From: a virus
Virus record (IMG/VR): IMGVR_UViG_3300027906_000002
Location: 115,403 to 179,402 of that record
Reading direction: 5' to 3' (one strand)
Length of the DNA: 64,000 nucleotides
Each line of letters begins with the position of its first letter. Positions within the stretch are counted from its first letter, which is position 1. The notes below the pieces were generated by a model, which was not told the DNA's origin, ran no database searches, and saw only the letters and a program-made list of their open reading frames with translations. The translations under genes and the position numbers were made by a program. Positions 1,968-55,590 of this stretch are shown here, piece by piece.

Positions 1968-4900
1968 ATGGCAAATAGAATACAGTTAAGACGAGGTGGT
2001 GCTCAGGAATGGGCAAACTCAAACCCTACATTGGCACAAGGTGAATTAGGGATAGAATTAGACACTGGTCGATTTAAAATTGGAGATGGCGTTACAGCGT
2101 GGAACTCTTTGAGGTACGAGAGACCCGTTGAATCAACATCTAATACCGCAAATACTTTAGTACAAAGAGACGCAGACGGTAATTTCGCTGCAGGTACTAT
2201 AACATCAACTCTAATTGGTAATGCTTCAACTTCAACAAGACTTGCTTCAACTCGTCAGATTCAACTCTCCGACGACATTCAAGCTTCTGGTGTATTTGAT
2301 GGTTCTACAAACTTAAACTTATCAACATCTTTAGAGCTGATTTCAACCTTACCACATTATGATGGTACTGGTACTGCAGAAGGAACGTATACTAAAGTTA
2401 CTGTAGATGCTAAAGGAAGAATTAAAACAGCAACCAATCCAACTACTCTTGCCGCATATGGTTTAGATACAAGTATAGAAGGGTCTGGTGCTCAACCATA
2501 TGATAATGATCTTAATGCGATAGCAAGTCTTACTACAACTGGATTTATTTCTAGAACTAGTTCTGGTGCTACGAGTACTAGAACAATTACTGGTACTGCT
2601 ACAAGGATAGCTATTACTGAAGGTGCTGGTATTAATGATAACCCATCAATTGATCTTATCACGACTGCTGTTACTGCTGCTGAATATAATGCAGCATCAC
2701 TAACATCAATTGCAGGTTCAGAAACTGTTAACACTAATAACTATATTGTTGATTCTTATGGTAGATTAACATCATCTGTAACTCTACCAATTGCAACGGC
2801 AACTCAGGGAACTACTGCAGCTGCATATAATAATGGATCAACATATTCTAGAAATGATCAGATAACAAATGCATCTAATCTCTATCAAGCTATTGCAGAT
2901 GTAACTGCTGGAGCTGGAGCACCTACACATACAGATGCTACTGATGCTGGATCATGGAGATGGTTAGGTGCTAGTGCATCACCTCAGAAAGGACTTGCTT
3001 CATTTGACCAAGAAGATTTTGATGTATCTGCAGCAGGTCATGTTACATTCGCTGCTGGTGCTATTGATAATGATCAATTACAAAATAGTAGAATTTCCTT
3101 TGCTGACGGTAACTCTAAAGAGGACTTCGACCTAGATCAAGAACTAACTGCTACTACAGGATACCGTGGATTCAACTATCTCAACTATCTCAAGGTTAAT
3201 GATACAAGTGGTAATCTACTGTTTGGGGCAAATAATACGGGTGATGGTGGTGCTGGAGAAGTTGATATTAACGCAAGACTTTATTTTAGTGATGCAGACA
3301 TTACCCTCGATGGGGCGGTTGCACAAACTTTAGACAAGACTGGAGATGGTAATCTAACATTCCAGACTACACAGAACTCAACATCTGCTAGATCTTTAAG
3401 TATACTTGCAACTAACTCTGGTTCTGGTACAAGTACAGTAACTATTTCTGCAGAAGATGTAGTTGATATAGATGCATCAGATGCTGCTGGTAAAGTTCAT
3501 GTAGAGAACTTAAGGTTCCAAGGTAACTACATGGGTGGTACTGGTGATATTTTAATTGACCCTAATGATGATAGGGATATCACTGGATTGGTAACTATAC
3601 GAGGTAATTTACAAGTAGATGGAACAACGACAACCGTTAATTCAACAGTTACAACGTTGGATGATCCTATTATTACTCTTGGTGGCGATAGTGCTCCAGG
3701 TAGTGATGACAATAAGGATCGTGGAGTTGAGTTCCGTTACTATGACAGCTCAGCAAAAGTTGGATTCTTTGGCTACGATGATTCGTATTCAGATCTTGCA
3801 GGACATTCAGGGGGATTTAGATTCCTCTACGATGCCACAAATACCTCAGAAGTATTTGCTGGAACAGATGCAGGGGTCATCGGTGGAAACTTAAAACTTA
3901 CAACTGGTACAGCATCTACTACTAATACTACTGGTGACTTAGTGGTCGCAGGTGGTGCTGGAATCGGTGGTAGTGTCAATATTGGTGGTTCAGTAGATAT
4001 TGATACTAATCTCACTGTTCATGGTACAACTCTCCATGATGACAATATTGTTATCCAAGGTGCTTCTAAGGTTCTACAACTTAATAATGGTAGTGGAACT
4101 ACTAGAGTAGAACTACAATCAACAACTGGTAATGCATCATTCTATGGTGTTGTTGATATAACTAACAACCTTAATATTAATGCAACCAAGTTTAATGTTG
4201 TAGCAGCATCTGGTAATACTGCTATTGCTGGTACTCTAACAGTATCTGATGAAACTATAGTTAAAGCAGACAATAAGACCTTCAAAGTTCAGACTGCTGC
4301 TGGAGTAGATAAGTTTGTTGTTGATACCGATAATGGTGATACTAATACTGAAGGTAAATTAAATGTTGCTGACCTAGTTCATTTTGAATCAACAGACAAT
4401 CCTAATATTGTATCTGGTGCTCCACATACAATTGGGTCTGCTGACTACGGTGCATTAAGAGTAGATGGTGGTGGATACTTTGATAAGGACGTTCTGTTTA
4501 ATGGTGACTTATATCTAAACGGTGACTTTAACCAGCAAGAAGACGCAACTGAGAACTATGGTTTAAGGAACTACCTATCTGTAAGATACAAACTCCGTAC
4601 TGGTTCTGTTGCTGCATACACACCAAGTTATTCAAACCACAACACTTCTAACTTAAGAGTCTTTGGTGGTGCTGGTGTTAACACTTCATTACATGTTGGT
4701 GGTACTGGTTCTGGAGAAGGTTTCTTTGTAGGTAAGAAGAACTCTGGAGATTCAGTTAAGTTCCAAGTTCTAGGTGCTTCAGGAGATATCACATCTGAAG
4801 GTGATCTAGTACAAAATGGTAATTCGGAATTTAATGGTACTGTTGATGTTGATGCAGACTTTGCTGTTCGTTCTGGTACAACAGATAAATTCTTTGTTGA

Positions 4901-26750: not shown

Positions 26751-26779
26751 AAAGAGACCCCAAAGGGGTCTCTTTTTTT
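26751..26779 (+). terminator. Rho-independent terminator after major capsid gene
   Basis: Perfect 11-bp stem AAAGAGACCCC / GGGGTCTCTTT with an AAA loop and a run of seven Ts. Ends the head-gene transcript. The AAAGAGACC / GGTCTCTTT arms recur in the terminator at 55600. Confidence 0.95.
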
Positions 26780-26782
26780 ATG

Positions 26783-26789
26783 CTAAATA
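26783..26789 (+). promoter_or_regulatory. Candidate late promoter variant (CTAAATA)
   Basis: CTAAATA followed by G lies just past the capsid terminator and about 21 bases before the synthetase-like ATG, where a fresh promoter is required. Same element as at 21503 and 28231. Confidence 0.4.
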
Positions 26790-26809: not shown

Positions 26810-27601
26810 ATGACAAGCTTGATTGATCCAAAGAAATATACTGAGACAGTGGGGCGTTTACGCTCCTTTTTTTTAGCCAAAGGATTCTATGAAGTACATA
26901 CACAAAACCGTTTAAGTATACTTGCTGCTTGTGAAGATCCAGAAACAGTAGCAACATATAATTACGGTGGTAATATATGGCCACTACCACAAACAGGTCA
27001 GATGTGGCTTGAACATGAATTACTTTCTAACCCTTCAGCAGAAGGGTTTTTCTGTGTCTCAACGTCTTATAGGGCAGAACCAAACCCAGTACCAGGAAGA
27101 CATGAAACGATCTTCCCTATGTTTGAGTTTGAAATGAAGGGGGATGTAGAAGATCTTAAGAGCATGGAGATTGATCTATGCAAATATCTAGGACTTCCTG
27201 AGTTAGATATAGAAACTTATGAAGACTGGTCTAATAAATTCAACACGAAAGAACTAGACCATGACCATGAAAAGGCAATTGGTTCTGGTATGATTACAGA
27301 GTTCCCTGAATGGACATCACCTTTCTGGAACATGTCTAGGAACGATGATGGAACCAGTAGAAAGATTGATGTTATCTTAGGTGGCATGGAAACCATTGGT
27401 AGTGCAGAACGCAGTACTGATAAAGAACAGATGCGTAATACCTTCTACACCATATCTGATGGTGGGTATGCTCAACTTATTATCGATAAGTTTGGTAGAA
27501 GTAGAGTAGAGAAAGAACTAGAAGACTTCCTCTCATTTGATTTCTTCCCTCGTTCTGGAGGTGGGATAGGAGTCCAACGTCTAATGTCAGCCCTTTCATA
27601 G
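26810..27601 (+). CDS. AsnRS/AspRS-like class II synthetase core without anticodon-binding domain (asparagine synthetase-like)
   Basis: 263 residues. Class II motifs are visible: a motif 1-like Phe-Leu-Ala-Lys-Gly-Phe-Tyr-Glu-Val-His-Thr (about 21-31), motif 2 as SYRAEPN then GRHETIFPMFEFEM (about 86-108), an active-site stretch ending Gly-Gly-Met-Glu-Thr-Ile-Gly-Ser-Ala-Glu-Arg-Ser, and motif 3 GGGIGVQRLM near 250-259. The middle (Glu-Phe-Pro-Glu-Trp-Thr-Ser-Pro-Phe-Trp) corresponds to the Tyr-Pro...Phe-Tyr segment of AsnRS. The N-terminal OB-fold that binds anticodons is absent and no start lies upstream to supply it. This matches the layout of archaeal AsnRS-derived asparagine synthetases, so the product could be asparagine rather than Asn-tRNA. 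A tRNA with a GUU anticodon follows eight bases later. Confidence 0.75.
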   Translation: MTSLIDPKKYTETVGRLRSFFLAKGFYEVHTQNRLSILAACEDPETVATYNYGGNIWPLPQTGQMWLEHELLSNPSAEGFFCVSTSYRAEPNPVPGRHETIFPMFEFEMKGDVEDLKSMEIDLCKYLGLPELDIETYEDWSNKFNTKELDHDHEKAIGSGMITEFPEWTSPFWNMSRNDDGTSRKIDVILGGMETIGSAERSTDKEQMRNTFYTISDGGYAQLIIDKFGRSRVEKELEDFLSFDFFPRSGGGIGVQRLMSALS

Positions 27602-27609
27602 GGCTACAT

Positions 27610-27695
27610 TGTGAGGTGACGAAATTGGTAAACGTGTCAGTCTGTTTAACTGATGTTCCTGGCGGGACTTGAAGGTTCGACTCCTTCCCTCACAG
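27610..27695 (+). tRNA. tRNA with class II (long variable arm) fold and GUU anticodon
   Basis: 86 bases fold fully: acceptor TGTGAGG/CCTCACA (7 bp), D stem ACG/CGT around a loop with the conserved GG, anticodon stem TCAGT/ACTGA with loop CTGTTTA, a 17-base variable region with stem GTTCC/GGGAC, T stem GAAGG/CCTTC with TTCGACT, discriminator G. No CCA is encoded. Anticodon bases 27644-27646 are GTT (Asn). U1-A72 and G73 fit Asn, but the long variable arm and D-arm layout are Leu/Ser type, and position 37 is U instead of a purine. Either an unusual functional tRNA or a degenerate one; aminoacid identity is uncertain. Confidence 0.82.
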
Positions 27696-27727
27696 TTTAT
27701 GCATATATAATATACTTGATATTTATT

Positions 27728-28234
27728 ATGAATCATAGGGTAGTTGATAATTTTTTAACCCATCATGAGTTGGCACATCTACAAGAAGTATATCTTGAAG
27801 ATGACTTTCCTTGGTTTTGGGGACCAACAACTGTACCTTATGAGGGATCCAATTGTGAAAATGAATTAGATAACTATCAATTCTACCATCCATTTTATGT
27901 TCCAGGAATGTATAATAATACACCGTACTGGAACATACTCGATCCTATAATAAAAAAACTTGGTGTTAGATCTCTTCTAAGAATAAAGGGAAACTTAACT
28001 ACAAGAACTACAGAAATAGTTGAACATGGATATCATGTAGATTTTAAATGGGATGATTCTTTAACAGCAATTTACTATGTTAATAGTAATGATGGGTATA
28101 CCATATTTGAAGATGGTACTAAAATAGAAAGTGTAGAGAACCGTATTGTCATCTTCCCAGTCCATCATAAACATAGTGGTACTAGTTGTACTAACGAAAA
28201 AAGAAGAGTTATTATTAATTTCAATTACTTCTAA
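27728..28234 (+). CDS. 2OG-Fe(II) oxygenase-like protein
   Basis: 168 residues from the ATG at 27728; an in-frame ATG at 27653 is rejected because it lies inside the tRNA. The N-terminus (Val-Val-Asp-Asn-Phe-Leu-Thr-His) is typical of prolyl-hydroxylase-like proteins. Ligands: His-Val-Asp in GYHVDFKWD, distal His in VHHKHSG and Arg ten residues later in KRRVIINF. Substrate unknown; a protein or small-molecule hydroxylase is inferred. Confidence 0.78.
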   Translation: MNHRVVDNFLTHHELAHLQEVYLEDDFPWFWGPTTVPYEGSNCENELDNYQFYHPFYVPGMYNNTPYWNILDPIIKKLGVRSLLRIKGNLTTRTTEIVEHGYHVDFKWDDSLTAIYYVNSNDGYTIFEDGTKIESVENRIVIFPVHHKHSGTSCTNEKRRVIINFNYF

Positions 28235-37332: not shown

Positions 37333-39430
37333 AGGGATCCTTGCAAAGCTCCTAGCAACAGAGAATCTCACAGTAGAGCATCGTCAAGTACAGACGGCTT
37401 CATTCGATGTGAATAATCGTGTTCTTACCTTACCTATATGGAAGGATGCTTCTGGTACGATCTACGATCTTCTAGTTGGACATGAGGTTGGTCATGCTTT
37501 ATATACTCCCAATATACCTGTTGATGCTCCCAAGGGATTTGTTAACGTTATAGAAGATGCTCGTATTGAGCGTATGATGAAGCATACATATCCTGGTCTT
37601 AAGAAGTCATTCTTTGAAGGGTATAGAGAACTATGGCATAAGGATTTCTTTGGTGTTGCAGATGAGGAGATATCAGAACTAGCATTCATTGATCGTATCA
37701 ATCTATTCTTCAAAGGTAATAATGAAATAGAATTTACTGAAGAAGAGGGAGACTGGGTTCATCGTGTAGCAACTACAAAGACATTTGAAGATGTTCTAGA
37801 ACTCTCTAGAGAATTGTATGAGTGGGCAGAAAGTAAAGAACAAGATAAAAAACCAGATCTACCTGAACAGATTAATATTGATTGGAATAATCCTGTTGCT
37901 GGTAATGAGATAGAGCAAGAGATTGATTCTGAAAATAAAGAAGATGGACAAGGTGAAGGTGAAGATCAAAGACCTAACAATCAAAAGTCAATTGAAGATA
38001 GACTTGATGAATTGGAAGATGCTATGTATGAGGATGATATAACTGGTGGTACTGAAGCTTCTCCTGATGAGACTGAGTGTGTTACAGATAAAGCATTGCA
38101 AGAATCATTAGAAACTTTAGTGGATGATGATGCTAGAGAGTGGGTTTATTTAAACCTTCCTAAGATAGATCTTAATAAAACAATTGTTGGACATAAGAAA
38201 ATCCAAGAAGATCTTCACTTTGGTTTATATGGACAAGCTTGTAGGGATAAGCAGTTCCATGATTACTATTATGATAGTCTTAATTATGCTGAGAAGCACT
38301 ATGAATCATATAAAAAAGAAGCACAACGTAGTGTTAATTATCTTTTAAAACAGTTTGAGATGAAGAAGTCTGCTGCTGAGTATAAGAGAGCAGCAACATC
38401 TAAGACTGGTGTTATTGATACACAGTCTTTATACAAGTACAAGATAAGTGATGATATCTTTAGAAGGATTACAGTAGTTCCAGAAGGTAAGAATCATGGA
38501 TTAGTATTCTACCTTGATTGGTCTGGGTCTATGAATCATGTATTGTTAGATACTCTTAAGCAGACTTACAATTTAGTATGGTTCTGTAGGAAAGCACAAA
38601 TACCATTTAGAGTATATGGATTCCAAAATGGATGGGACAATCATTCATCTCATCCTGCTATAAAGGAAGAAGCAAATGTTTTAGGATTCTGTAGTGGATT
38701 TAAACTTCTAGAATTCTTTTCATCACAGCAGAATAAGAAGTCACTAGAGAGATCAATGCAGTATGTATACATGCAAGCATTTGCTATGAACAATCATAGG
38801 ATAGGATATGTTCAAGAGTACGGTCTTGGTGGTACTCCTCTTGGTGAGGCAGTCTTATGTTCAAGACAAATAGTAGAGCAAATCAGAAGGGTTGAGAGAG
38901 TTGATAAGGTTAATGTAGTTTGTTTAACTGATGGTGAATCCAATCCATTAACTGCTGTATTAGAATGTGATTATAATGGATTGAGTACAAGGCAATTACG
39001 TCCTTCAAAAGTTTATGTACTAAGAGATCCTAGAACTGGATACACTCGTGAATTAAAATCAAGTCCATACTTAACAACGAAAGAGATTGTTAGTTTCTTT
39101 AAAGAGATTACTGATTTCAATTGGATAGGTATGCGTATCTGCTCTAAGAATGAACTTAAGAGAAGTCTTCGCATTCTAGATTATGAAGAGTCTGATAGAA
39201 TGGAGAAGCAATGGACTAAACAAAAGTTTGCATCTTCTCTACTTTTAGGTTATACTGAAGCATTCTTCATACCTTATCAAGGCATGGGTGAAGGCACTCA
39301 AGACCTTGAAGTTAAACAGAAGGGTGAAGAAGCAACCAGAGCAGAACTAACACGTGCATTTAAAAAGCACATGGGTTCTAAGATGACAAACAAAACTATC
39401 TTAAACAAATTTGTGGAGCAAATAGCATGA
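37310..39430 (+). CDS. cobT: CobT-like protein: HExxH metallopeptidase motif plus VWA domain
   Basis: 706 residues from the ATG at 37310, chosen for the GAGAGGG upstream; an in-frame ATG at 37292 adds six residues. Residues 57-61 are His-Glu-Val-Gly-His, a zinc metallopeptidase signature. An acidic linker (about 185-260) precedes a C-terminal von Willebrand A domain with Asp-Trp-Ser-Gly-Ser (about 402-406), the MIDAS metal site. Cyanophage proteins of this type are often called CobT from resemblance to cobaltochelatase CobT, a partner of the AAA+ protein CobS, also encoded here. No CobN is seen, so a role in cobalamin synthesis is doubtful. Confidence 0.75.
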   Translation: MTINAEVKGILAKLLATENLTVEHRQVQTASFDVNNRVLTLPIWKDASGTIYDLLVGHEVGHALYTPNIPVDAPKGFVNVIEDARIERMMKHTYPGLKKSFFEGYRELWHKDFFGVADEEISELAFIDRINLFFKGNNEIEFTEEEGDWVHRVATTKTFEDVLELSRELYEWAESKEQDKKPDLPEQINIDWNNPVAGNEIEQEIDSENKEDGQGEGEDQRPNNQKSIEDRLDELEDAMYEDDITGGTEASPDETECVTDKALQESLETLVDDDAREWVYLNLPKIDLNKTIVGHKKIQEDLHFGLYGQACRDKQFHDYYYDSLNYAEKHYESYKKEAQRSVNYLLKQFEMKKSAAEYKRAATSKTGVIDTQSLYKYKISDDIFRRITVVPEGKNHGLVFYLDWSGSMNHVLLDTLKQTYNLVWFCRKAQIPFRVYGFQNGWDNHSSHPAIKEEANVLGFCSGFKLLEFFSSQQNKKSLERSMQYVYMQAFAMNNHRIGYVQEYGLGGTPLGEAVLCSRQIVEQIRRVERVDKVNVVCLTDGESNPLTAVLECDYNGLSTRQLRPSKVYVLRDPRTGYTRELKSSPYLTTKEIVSFFKEITDFNWIGMRICSKNELKRSLRILDYEESDRMEKQWTKQKFASSLLLGYTEAFFIPYQGMGEGTQDLEVKQKGEEATRAELTRAFKKHMGSKMTNKTILNKFVEQIA

Positions 39431-40050
39431 GCATTTGGGATGGATATCGGGAGGCAGTATTCAATACGTTTCCTGATTTGATATACAACTTCAATCATAC
39501 AGATTGGACTAACAAAAGAGGTGTTAATCTGACTGCTGATCTATATTCTGGTAAGCATTTTATCAAGTCTAGGCACGTTGATATATGGGATGGTACTGTT
39601 GATATCCATAACAATATAATGTATCCTAAGACTGGACATAACCTTCCTTGCTTTGGTATGGATTTGATGGGATTCAATAAGAAGAAATGTATCATAGTAT
39701 TTGACTTCCAACATCCAGTAGAAAATTATCTATTGAAAGTTCCACCATTACCTCAGACAACAGAGACCTATCGTTTCTTTGAGAAGGGTAATCATTTCTC
39801 TGATAATATCTTTGTAAGGTATTGTGAGATGGATGGAGTTGATACATTCCTACCAACATTCAAATACTATCTGTCACTCTATAAGGAAATGATAGATAAA
39901 GCAAAACCAACTGAAGAAGATACAACAGTCTATAAAGACTTTGATTCTTATATGATTAAGTTAGACCCTATCTCAGGTTATCTTTCTAGTCAATTTGGTA
40001 AAGATGAATCTGAAAAATTAATCAAGGAGTTCTTTTTTAGCTATGCCTGA
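39427..40050 (+). CDS. pebS: Phycoerythrobilin synthase PebS
   Basis: 207 residues; ferredoxin-dependent bilin reductase that reduces biliverdin IX-alpha by four electrons to phycoerythrobilin. It closely resembles the phage P-SSM2 PebS: Tyr-Pro-Lys-Thr-Gly, Leu-Pro-Cys-Phe-Gly-Met-Asp-Leu-Met (carrying the Asp known to matter), Phe-Asp-Phe-Gln-His-Pro, Gly-Asn-His-Phe-Ser, Phe-Val-Arg-Tyr-Cys and Leu-Asp-Pro-Ile-Ser-Gly-Tyr (the second Asp). The N-terminus is shorter than P-SSM2 PebS (233). Overlaps cobT by four bases and pcyA by eight. Confidence 0.9.
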   Translation: MSIWDGYREAVFNTFPDLIYNFNHTDWTNKRGVNLTADLYSGKHFIKSRHVDIWDGTVDIHNNIMYPKTGHNLPCFGMDLMGFNKKKCIIVFDFQHPVENYLLKVPPLPQTTETYRFFEKGNHFSDNIFVRYCEMDGVDTFLPTFKYYLSLYKEMIDKAKPTEEDTTVYKDFDSYMIKLDPISGYLSSQFGKDESEKLIKEFFFSYA

Positions 40051-53444: not shown

Positions 53445-54058
53445 TGTCTGCACCTACATTAACTGATCTGATATATCTAAAGAAAAACTATTTGACTAAG
53501 GATCAGTGTGAAATTATTATTAATGAATTTGAGGCAAGCTCACAAAAACCTGATCAGGAACATTGTGGGCATGCCTTTAATAATTTGGATGTATACTCTA
53601 CCTTTAAAGTTAAGGAGTCTAAGGTAGGTACTGATAGTTTTAATATAATACATCAGACTATTGAGAATATGATTAATGAGTATCATGATTACCTTGATAC
53701 CTTTAATGCATTTCATGTTGCTAGGAGAGGTAGTATGTTACATCCTCATAAGTATCGTCTTATGAGATATGATAAAGGTGCTTGGATACATCCTCATATA
53801 GATCATGATGTTACCATATATGGTAGTTGTACTATCAATTTAAATGATGAGTATGAAGGTGGTGACTTTGCGTTCTGGGGTGGTAAGCATAAATTGAAAT
53901 TAGGATTAGGTGATGTGATGATCTGGCCAGCAGATTTCTTTTGGGTGCATGAGGTAGAAGAAATAACAGATGGTACTAGGTACTCTGCAAATACTTTTTT
54001 ATGTTCTACACCAAAAACATTACCTGAAACTGTAAGATATAATGTGAGGGGTGTATGA
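53444..54058 (+). CDS. Prolyl 4-hydroxylase-like 2OG-Fe(II) oxygenase
   Basis: 204 residues. Ligands: His-x-Asp in HPHIDHD (about 117-123), distal His in WVHEVEE and Arg ten residues later in RYSANTFL; GGDFAFWGG between them is typical of prolyl hydroxylase-like proteins. Its start overlaps the pstS stop and its end overlaps the halogenase, so the two may act together. Confidence 0.82.
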   Translation: MSAPTLTDLIYLKKNYLTKDQCEIIINEFEASSQKPDQEHCGHAFNNLDVYSTFKVKESKVGTDSFNIIHQTIENMINEYHDYLDTFNAFHVARRGSMLHPHKYRLMRYDKGAWIHPHIDHDVTIYGSCTINLNDEYEGGDFAFWGGKHKLKLGLGDVMIWPADFFWVHEVEEITDGTRYSANTFLCSTPKTLPETVRYNVRGV

Positions 54059-55590
54059 AAACTATTGCTATTGTTGGTGGTGGTACTGCTGGATGGATTA
54101 CTGCTCATCAATTTCTTAGAAAAATAAATCCAGAAATAAAAATACTTGTAGTGTCTTCCTCACAAGTTCCTGTTATAGGAGTGGGTGAAGGAACTACAGG
54201 TCTTTTTACTGAGTTGATCCATGAACTGTTTGATGAGAAAGAATTTTTAAAAGAAACAGAATCTACTTATAAGATAGGTATTAGACATAGTGATTGGGAT
54301 CAAGTAGGAAAATCTTTTTGGTCACCATTAGGTGATGAATACTCTGGTGAGTCTTCCTTCCCTTCACCAGACTATGATGATGTTAGGGTGTGGCATATTG
54401 CTAATGGATTAGAATATGATAAGTCATTTCAATCTCGTTTGATGGCAGAGAATAGACTCCATATTTCAAATGGTGAAAGTATATACACTAAGATACATGA
54501 GGAACAAGATGGGTATAGTATACCTGTTGCATATCATTTAGATAGTCGTAAGGTTGGGGAGTATTTAAAAAGGAAAGCATTAGAAAAATCTAATTGTTCT
54601 CATGTTGAAGGTAAAGTAGTAGCTCTCGCTCAAGATAGAGATGGTTCTATACATCATCTTGTCTTAGATGATGATAGAGAAGTTGAAGCTGATTTTTATA
54701 TAGATTGTTCTGGGTTCTCTAGAATATTAATTAATAATATTACAGATAATAATTTTATATCATATGATAATAATCTTTTAGTAGATAGTGCTTTAGTTTT
54801 TACTAGAGATTCTCGTGAGATGTGGTATGAAGATCCAAAGAATGACATCAGAAACTACACTCATGCTCATGCATTAAAGAATGGATGGATGTGGGAGATA
54901 CCTACTCAAACTAGGATGGGATGTGGATATACTTTTAGTAGTAAGTTTACTGATAAGGATAAGGCATATGATGAGTTAGGTGATGTGGAGATAACAAAAC
55001 ATATTACATTTAACTCTGGAAGAATAGAAAAGCATTGGTTTAAGAATGTATTATCAACAGGTCTTGCTAGTGGATTCGTTGAACCATTGGAAGCTATTTC
55101 TATTCATGCTACCATCTTACAGAATCAAGAGTTCTTAGATAATTATTTTAAACCTAGTTTAGATCTAACTTGTGATGCTATTCAAGAACAGTATAATGAA
55201 GATGTGAATTATATGTGGGATAATTTTAGAGACTTTCTTGTGTTCCATTACATTTCACATAGAAGAGATACTGATTTCTGGATTGAATCTTCTAGTCCAG
55301 AAAGATGGAGTCCTAGATTAACTAGACTAATGAAAATATGGGGATGTAGAATGCCAAGGGTTACCGATTTTAAAATTGGTAAGAGTAATGATTTTCATGC
55401 TATGGGTAATCCGTTATGGTATAACATTGCTATTGGTATGAACATATTAGATCCATTACTTGCTTTACAAGAGTTGAATGACTATGGCATATATGATGCA
55501 ACAGAAACTCATTGTAAAAATACATTTGATGCTATAGAGAAAGCACTACCATCTATGGTTAAAACAACTGATTATTATGTGCATATATAA
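54055..55590 (+). CDS. prnA: Tryptophan halogenase family protein
   Basis: 511 residues. FAD-dependent halogenases chlorinate or brominate tryptophan or related substrates using reduced flavin, chloride and O2. N-terminal Gly-Gly-Gly-Thr-Ala-Gly-Trp (about 7-13) binds FAD, a Tyr-Lys matching the catalytic Lys region occurs near 82, Gly-Trp-x-Trp-x-Ile-Pro appears as GWMWEIP at about 277-283, and Gly-Phe-Val-Glu-Pro-Leu-Glu near 339. Close to PrnA length (538). Found in several cyanophages; real substrate unknown. Ends at a terminator. Confidence 0.9.
   Translation: MKTIAIVGGGTAGWITAHQFLRKINPEIKILVVSSSQVPVIGVGEGTTGLFTELIHELFDEKEFLKETESTYKIGIRHSDWDQVGKSFWSPLGDEYSGESSFPSPDYDDVRVWHIANGLEYDKSFQSRLMAENRLHISNGESIYTKIHEEQDGYSIPVAYHLDSRKVGEYLKRKALEKSNCSHVEGKVVALAQDRDGSIHHLVLDDDREVEADFYIDCSGFSRILINNITDNNFISYDNNLLVDSALVFTRDSREMWYEDPKNDIRNYTHAHALKNGWMWEIPTQTRMGCGYTFSSKFTDKDKAYDELGDVEITKHITFNSGRIEKHWFKNVLSTGLASGFVEPLEAISIHATILQNQEFLDNYFKPSLDLTCDAIQEQYNEDVNYMWDNFRDFLVFHYISHRRDTDFWIESSSPERWSPRLTRLMKIWGCRMPRVTDFKIGKSNDFHAMGNPLWYNIAIGMNILDPLLALQELNDYGIYDATETHCKNTFDAIEKALPSMVKTTDYYVHI

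Follow-up and report, generated by a model that had tools for sequence, protein, structure and literature searches.

What does a small synthetase-like protein do in a T4-like cyanophage, and what is its relation to the tRNA gene that directly follows it? The window analysed here is the final 64 kb (64,000 nucleotides) of a 179,402-base T4-like cyanophage record. It encodes a 263-residue product, which we call X (26810-27601, + strand, ATG start), and after an 8-nt spacer (27602-27609, +) that is similarly short in relatives, a tRNA with the anticodon GUU. The initial annotation suggested that the two might form an asparagine module, in which X either makes asparagine or charges an unusual tRNA.

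X is an AsnRS-like catalytic core

X is a member of PHROG_29758, which PHROG lists as of unknown function, and its counterparts in P-SSM2, P-SSM5 and P-SSM7 are annotated as 'tRNA ligase'. The sole Pfam match is to tRNA-synt_2 (D, K, N; PF00152) over residues 14-262 (2.9e-13; 50 bits, cut-off 25). Motif 2 (YRAE...RH...FPMFEFE; motif 2 region 27044-27139, +) and motif 3 (GGGIGVQR; FPRSGGGIGVQRL, 27545-27583, +) are both found and their arginines, R88 and R257, are invariant, which identifies a class II core; motif 1 is recognisable without its usual Pro. As the Pfam match starts at residue 14, at the motif 1 helix, a protein of 263 residues has no space for an N-terminal OB-fold, and no N-terminal barrel is seen in an AlphaFold2 model built from 28 relatives (pLDDT 87, pTM 0.86). 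The first description of X, as a class II core with motifs 2 and 3 and no OB-fold, therefore holds.

Structure and profile searches also agree with the proposed placement in the Asp/Asn/AsnA class. Foldseek ranks AsnRS first, followed by AspRS and archaeal asparagine synthetase A; the top match is the P. horikoshii AsnRS with Asn-AMP (1x54, E 5e-19, TM 0.79), and the archaeal AsnA matches are 3rex, 3reu and 3rl6 (TMt 0.67 for 3rl6). X falls below the cut-off of each NCBIfam family model, with 19.2 bits against the AsnRS equivalog asnS (TIGR00457, cut-off 342.6), a weak match of 25.2 bits to archaeal asparagine synthetase A (PRK06462, cut-off 389), and a score also far under the AspRS equivalog cut-off.

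Residues E42, Q64, R88 and E90 of X are invariant among 28 homologs and align with E279, Q301, R322 and E324 of human AsnRS, of which E279, R322 and E324 contact Asn-AMP, E279 touching the Asn (PMC10831071). R88 and E90 thereby correspond to adenylate-binding residues, and E42 lies within CEDPET (residues 41-46; 26930-26947, +), the counterpart in our alignments of the AsnRS flipping loop, where D43-P44 replace the usual AsnRS G-G and E42, D43 and P44 are invariant in the X family. X has Leu (L67), as AsnRS does, at the position where AspRS has a Lys that reads the Asp side chain, and it has Arg (R248), a feature of the X family, at a position that is His in AsnRS. Because the adenylate and amino-acid contacts of AsnRS, a class IIb enzyme, are kept and Leu occupies the AspRS Lys position, X is most likely active and adenylates Asn or a similar compound. 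X nevertheless differs from AsnRS in its length, its missing anticodon domain, its pyrimidine gene context (see below) and an identity of only about 19%, and the invariant CEDP loop, R34, N174 and R248 are absent from aligned AsnRS. R34, D43 and R248, which are invariant in X and lie next to the AsnRS set, are candidates for holding an altered substrate.

Asn identity bases on a Leu-type tRNA body

ARAGORN reports a GUU tRNA at 27609-27696 (Rfam tRNA, 52.5 bits), with exact ends at 27610 (U1) and 27695 (G73), bearing out the tRNA noticed eight bases after X. Together with an alignment and a covariance model, these tools describe a class II, Leu-bodied tRNA (27610-27695, +) in which CCA is not encoded. 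It is 86 nt long, against 83-98 nt across relatives, and has a long variable arm of 14 nt (27655-27668, +). The helices contain 24 pairs, with 99.8% of cells paired and two-sided changes in 19 of the 24, and none of 500 shuffles matches the alignment on the pairing and covariation measures. Such conservation with compensatory changes indicates that the tRNA is a functional structure.

The best matches of the covariance model in cell genomes are all tRNA-Leu, which points to a Leu-type body. The anticodon G34U35U36 (27644-27646, +) and G73 (27695, +) are invariant in the alignment, and U1-A72 (27610/27694, +) is the only acceptor-stem feature that never varies. This is the set of determinants for Asn charging and for amidation of Asp-tRNA-Asn in bacteria (PMC9976931), and the phage tRNA carries all of it. 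The molecule thus resembles bacterial tRNA-Leu in its body and long variable arm, but with G73 for the A73 of tRNA-Leu, and bacterial tRNA-Asn in its anticodon, G73 and U1-A72, a combination that is not seen in ordinary tRNAs.

The anticodon loop is also unusual. Position 37 (27647, +) is U in all 51 distinct phage variants and position 33 is C in eight of them, whereas a comparison set of 54 distinct tRNAs, cellular and from a few phage contigs, has a purine at 37 throughout and U33 in 53. The phage tRNA does not conform to a canonical elongator tRNA-Asn with short variable loop, U33 and A37. Since U37 is constant and C33 recurs where decoding needs conservation, decoding is probably poor, and we infer from these bases that the tRNA was built for charging and amidation and not tuned for decoding. 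An ordinary phage tRNA cluster can be ruled out: no other tRNA was found in the 179-kb genome, and this one is invariably linked to X.

X and the tRNA form an obligate phage pair

Conservation of the adjacency in related phages had been suggested as a check on the pair, and it is borne out. In 80 IMG/VR loci the tRNA lies 3' of X, some 10-18 nt away, whenever the contig is long enough, tRNAs overlooked by ARAGORN having been recovered by eye or pattern. Conversely, a DNA pattern built on just the tRNA gave 98 matches with at least 300 nt of upstream sequence, and all 98 have X there. Four apparent exceptions in the cyanophage clade (L044, L065, L070 and L080) are ARAGORN misses or contig ends, with the tRNA visible by eye. 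As every cyanophage-clade locus that is long enough shows the arrangement and the tRNA helices covary, the adjacency is far beyond chance, and in this phage clade X and the class II GUU tRNA form an obligate pair. In a tree of the family, the tRNA-bearing X proteins, from the cyanophages and one phage-like contig (L089), form a supported clade (100/97) within a wider tRNA-less family. The huge phages LR756501 and LR756508 encode X but not the tRNA; a search for distant viral relatives with these two as queries returned two short contigs for one and none for the other.

The short spacer, here and in relatives, suggests that X and the tRNA are probably on one transcript. A terminator-like hairpin with a T-run, read from the sequence, lies between the major capsid gene (gp23) and X (26753-26779, +), and is followed by CTAAATA (26783-26789, +), an element that resembles the late promoters of T4-like phages and is conserved in relatives. 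TAAATA is present in all 85 distinct 60-nt regions upstream of X, and CTAAATA in 58 of them, 27-31 nt 5' of the ATG, as compared with 0.7% of random 60-nt genome windows. With this element kept upstream, X and the tRNA have the look of a transcription unit of their own; with their varied locations as well, beside gp23 here and in P-SSM7, directly upstream of a psbA gene in L065, and elsewhere in P-SSM2, they resemble a portable cassette.

The initial annotation knew of no description of such a pair. P-SSM2, P-SSM5 and P-SSM7 in fact carry both genes, annotated 'tRNA ligase' and 'tRNA-Asn', and the former is listed in PMC3037559. The claim stands to the extent that we found no discussion of either gene, and a search of the open-access literature for an AsnRS-like pyrimidine enzyme or for X of P-SSM2 or P-SSM7 gave nothing relevant.

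The P-SSM2 annotation appears to be displaced. In AY939844.2 / NC_006883.2, the annotated tRNA-Asn and the actual gene are some 2 kb apart (164094-164179 against 162082-162172); in AY939844.2 the annotated position falls inside another CDS, with coordinates that look carried over from GU071092.1, and the correct place, directly after 'tRNA ligase', has no annotation.

Several cellular X genes adjoin pyrimidine genes

A scan of genome contigs placed X in 17 MAG contigs at 49-70% identity. The query joined the X family to a 20-residue psbA tag that served to return Prochlorococcus anchor genomes in the same scan, and matches confined to about residues 256-283 are psbA, not X. Several of the contigs are clearly chromosomal, with neighbours such as ATP synthase and proline-synthesis genes. 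Four gammaproteobacterial loci (L094, L096, L097 and L098) have the order X-pyrE-pyrF on the same strand with short gaps, a fifth (L100) has X flanked by pyrF, pyrD and pyrE, and a Myxococcales MAG (Myxococcota; L103) has X-pyrD. X therefore has pyr-gene neighbours in six MAG loci from two phyla; pyrE is a neighbour in phages too, and on L089 a DHODH-like ORF directly precedes X and the tRNA. A pattern for class II GUU tRNAs gave only three tRNA-Leu-like matches in the cellular X-bearing genomes and huge phages, which argues that X is generally independent of the tRNA.

Two of the X genes (L091 and L104) contain in-frame TGA, as expected for the codes of SR1/Gracilibacteria in which TGA is Gly, and so truly belong to such genomes. 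On a Kaiserbacteria-binned contig (L090), X adjoins an indoleamine 2,3-dioxygenase-like gene (2061-3236, - strand; PF01231, 2e-85).

X and the first three steps of UMP synthesis

We compared 15 testable X-bearing MAGs, which are incomplete and without reported completeness, with 14 named control genomes. The carB domain (PF02787) was found in none of the 15, a convincing dihydroorotase pyrC of the TIGR00857 type in none, with three weak matches of 43-58 positions, and the ATCase/OTCase N-domain in one. Each of the three is present in 14/14 controls, and two Prochlorococcus genomes also have carB and weak pyrC matches.

The same pattern is seen within a single order, that of genome G008, in which X is present in five of 36 genomes. 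No X-bearing genome has pyrB over the cut-off, as against 25 of the 31 without X (Fisher p=0.0012), and pyrD without pyrB occurs in 5/5 and 4/31 respectively (p=0.0003). Given the absence of carB, pyrB and pyrC, X behaves, to judge from gene content, like a substitute for steps 1-3 of the UMP pathway. A strong pyrD is found in six of the 15 MAGs; the other nine, several of them small and of Patescibacteria type, have no convincing pyrD, and in such genomes X may also serve another purpose.

Four genomes of the same order (G033, G034, G043 and G044) have a strong pyrD with neither X nor pyrB over the cut-off; they are either incomplete MAGs or use yet another bypass.

Phages with X also carry pyrE

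PyrE is encoded in the phage genome that contains the window (39201-39725 of the record), along with ThyX, ribonucleotide reductase and purine genes recognised by eye from the sequence. All X-bearing phage isolates have pyrE, although there are only three of them, two closely related. Relatives of the phage PyrE at >50% identity come from single-cell marine virus fragments and from six records of Prochlorococcus phages, precisely those six that also encode X, and among 496 phage records bearing this gp23 type, the named cyanophages with pyrE are exactly those with X. In IMG/VR, 11 of the retrieved X loci also contain pyrE, and it adjoins X in five (L049, L057, L066, L234 and L238). Cyanophages are known to carry pyrE as an auxiliary gene, with a share that rises with depth, in a report in which the term 'tRNA ligase' does not occur (PMC9983427).

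In seven Prochlorococcus genomes nothing reaches the AsnRS cut-off, the matches being AspRS- and LysRS-like, and four of these seven also have no AsnB-type synthetase. Much of the Asn in such hosts should therefore arise on tRNA.

A proposed route from asparagine to dihydroorotate

Gene neighbourhoods, phyletic complementarity and phage co-occurrence are three lines of evidence that together make a role for X in de novo pyrimidine synthesis probable. That role is well supported by genomics; the reaction and the part played by the tRNA we infer. The combined reading, in which X has this role and the tRNA serves it in some way, we put at slightly better than even. X would most likely make the dihydroorotate that PyrD oxidises, bypassing CarAB-PyrB-PyrC.

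On this proposal X would be an AsnRS-derived, ATP-using, adenylate-forming enzyme that in cells stands in for CarAB, PyrB and PyrC and feeds PyrD, and in phages raises pyrimidine supply jointly with the phage PyrE. The most economical chemistry would be L-asparagine + HCO3- + ATP -> dihydroorotate + AMP + PPi; in composition, dihydroorotate is asparagine with CO2 added and water removed. With Asn and ATP bound in an AsnRS-type site, a carbamate of the alpha-amine could be activated, after which the side-chain amide nitrogen would close the ring. Ring closure by X would follow the logic of dethiobiotin synthetase, which forms a cyclic urea by way of a carbamate anhydride. A single step from Asn to dihydroorotate would explain the joint loss of CarAB, PyrB and PyrC, and we advance it as a tentative but serious candidate. 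X would then be alike in effect to the classical first three steps in supplying the PyrD substrate, but as an unrelated protein, one small enzyme of synthetase fold in place of four proteins.

The tRNA as Asn donor is a still more tentative suggestion. It would be charged with Asp by the host AspRS and amidated to Asn by GatCAB in a host without AsnRS, such as Prochlorococcus, and a dedicated, poorly decoding tRNA would secure the Asn substrate for X, either released or still bound to the tRNA. The fullest version, a tRNA-dependent pyrimidine synthesis in which X converts tRNA-borne Asn, bicarbonate and ATP to dihydroorotate without carbamoyl phosphate, is doubtful. Glu-tRNA-dependent tetrapyrrole synthesis and tRNA-dependent Asn formation by GatCAB are conceptual precedents for aminoacyl-tRNA as a metabolic substrate, and the phage tRNA shares the U1-A72 amidation determinant with the GatCAB-dependent system, although it is conjecture that X acts on the tRNA directly. 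We know of no pyrimidine route that uses an aminoacyl-tRNA.

The idea of an asparagine module survives in part: Asn probably does take part, though as what a pyrimidine step consumes, in free form or carried on a tRNA; making asparagine or charging an unusual tRNA as the end point leaves the pyr neighbours, the absence of carB, pyrB and pyrC, and the phage pyrE unexplained. X could work as archaeal AsnA does and synthesise asparagine (Asp + NH3 + ATP -> Asn), with the tRNA providing extra Asn decoding in an Asn-poor host. Archaeal asparagine synthetase A is likewise an AsnRS-like core alone, without an anticodon domain, and the shared fold (3rex, 3reu and 3rl6), the weak PRK06462 match, and Prochlorococcus hosts without AsnRS and often without AsnB are all consistent with this. 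We consider it unlikely nonetheless: the match is 25 bits against a cut-off of 389, X travels with pyrE, pyrF and pyrD operons and with carB/pyrB/pyrC loss, pyrE is in the same phages, AsnB is already present in several X-bearing genomes, and U37 and C33 speak against decoding.

If X were a minimal AsnRS and charged the tRNA beside it, the two would form an orthogonal Asn decoding pair, perhaps shielded from host anticodon nucleases by the altered body and loop; this would account for the obligate one-to-one pairing and for Asn identity bases kept on a foreign, Leu-like body. The layout of the pair would be comparable to PylRS/tRNA-Pyl, and nuclease-avoiding anticodon-loop changes have been proposed for phage tRNAs (PMC10264068). 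Cellular X has no such tRNA and adjoins pyr genes, X without an anticodon domain cannot account for the invariant GUU, and a pyrimidine at 37 with C33 is unfavourable for decoding, all of which make this reading improbable.

We regard as quite improbable, too, an ATP-driven dihydroorotase, with N-carbamoyl-aspartate adenylated at its beta-carboxylate in the way that AsnA treats Asp, and with the ureido nitrogen closing the ring. It accounts for the absence of PyrC and for the AsnA-like fold, but the carbamoyl-aspartate would have to be supplied from elsewhere, and the X-bearing genomes also lack carB and the carbamoyltransferase and so have no known source of it. Least probable is that X-bearing cells, many with small genomes (0.5-2.9 Mb) and maybe symbionts, salvage or import pyrimidines or orotate, the pyr link being incidental and phage X an ordinary auxiliary gene beside a degenerating tRNA, because pyrD, E and F are retained beside X with only the first three steps gone, and a tRNA with such strong covariation and constant linkage to X is not decaying.

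To our knowledge, the carbamoyl phosphate plus aspartate route of de novo pyrimidine synthesis is treated as universal. If the proposed role of X is correct, a single-enzyme bypass derived from AsnRS would add a new branch to central metabolism, shared by several bacterial phyla and abundant ocean phages, and would explain UMP synthesis in genomes with pyrD/E/F but no carAB/pyrB/pyrC. It would also give a function to the 'tRNA ligase' annotated for years in model cyanophages, and to a phage tRNA a job perhaps in metabolism instead of decoding.

Other genes in the window

The ORF following the tRNA (27725-28234) matches PHROG_274, 'DNA endonuclease V' (2.5e-50), and also a 2OG-Fe(II) oxygenase family (2.6e-5); it reads like a 2OG oxygenase, and the PHROG_274 label may be wrong. 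Several further 2OG-oxygenase-like ORFs are present in the 64-kb window. One of this kind precedes an ORF at 54055-55590 that by eye has the look of a FAD-dependent tryptophan-halogenase-type protein (GGGTAGW start).
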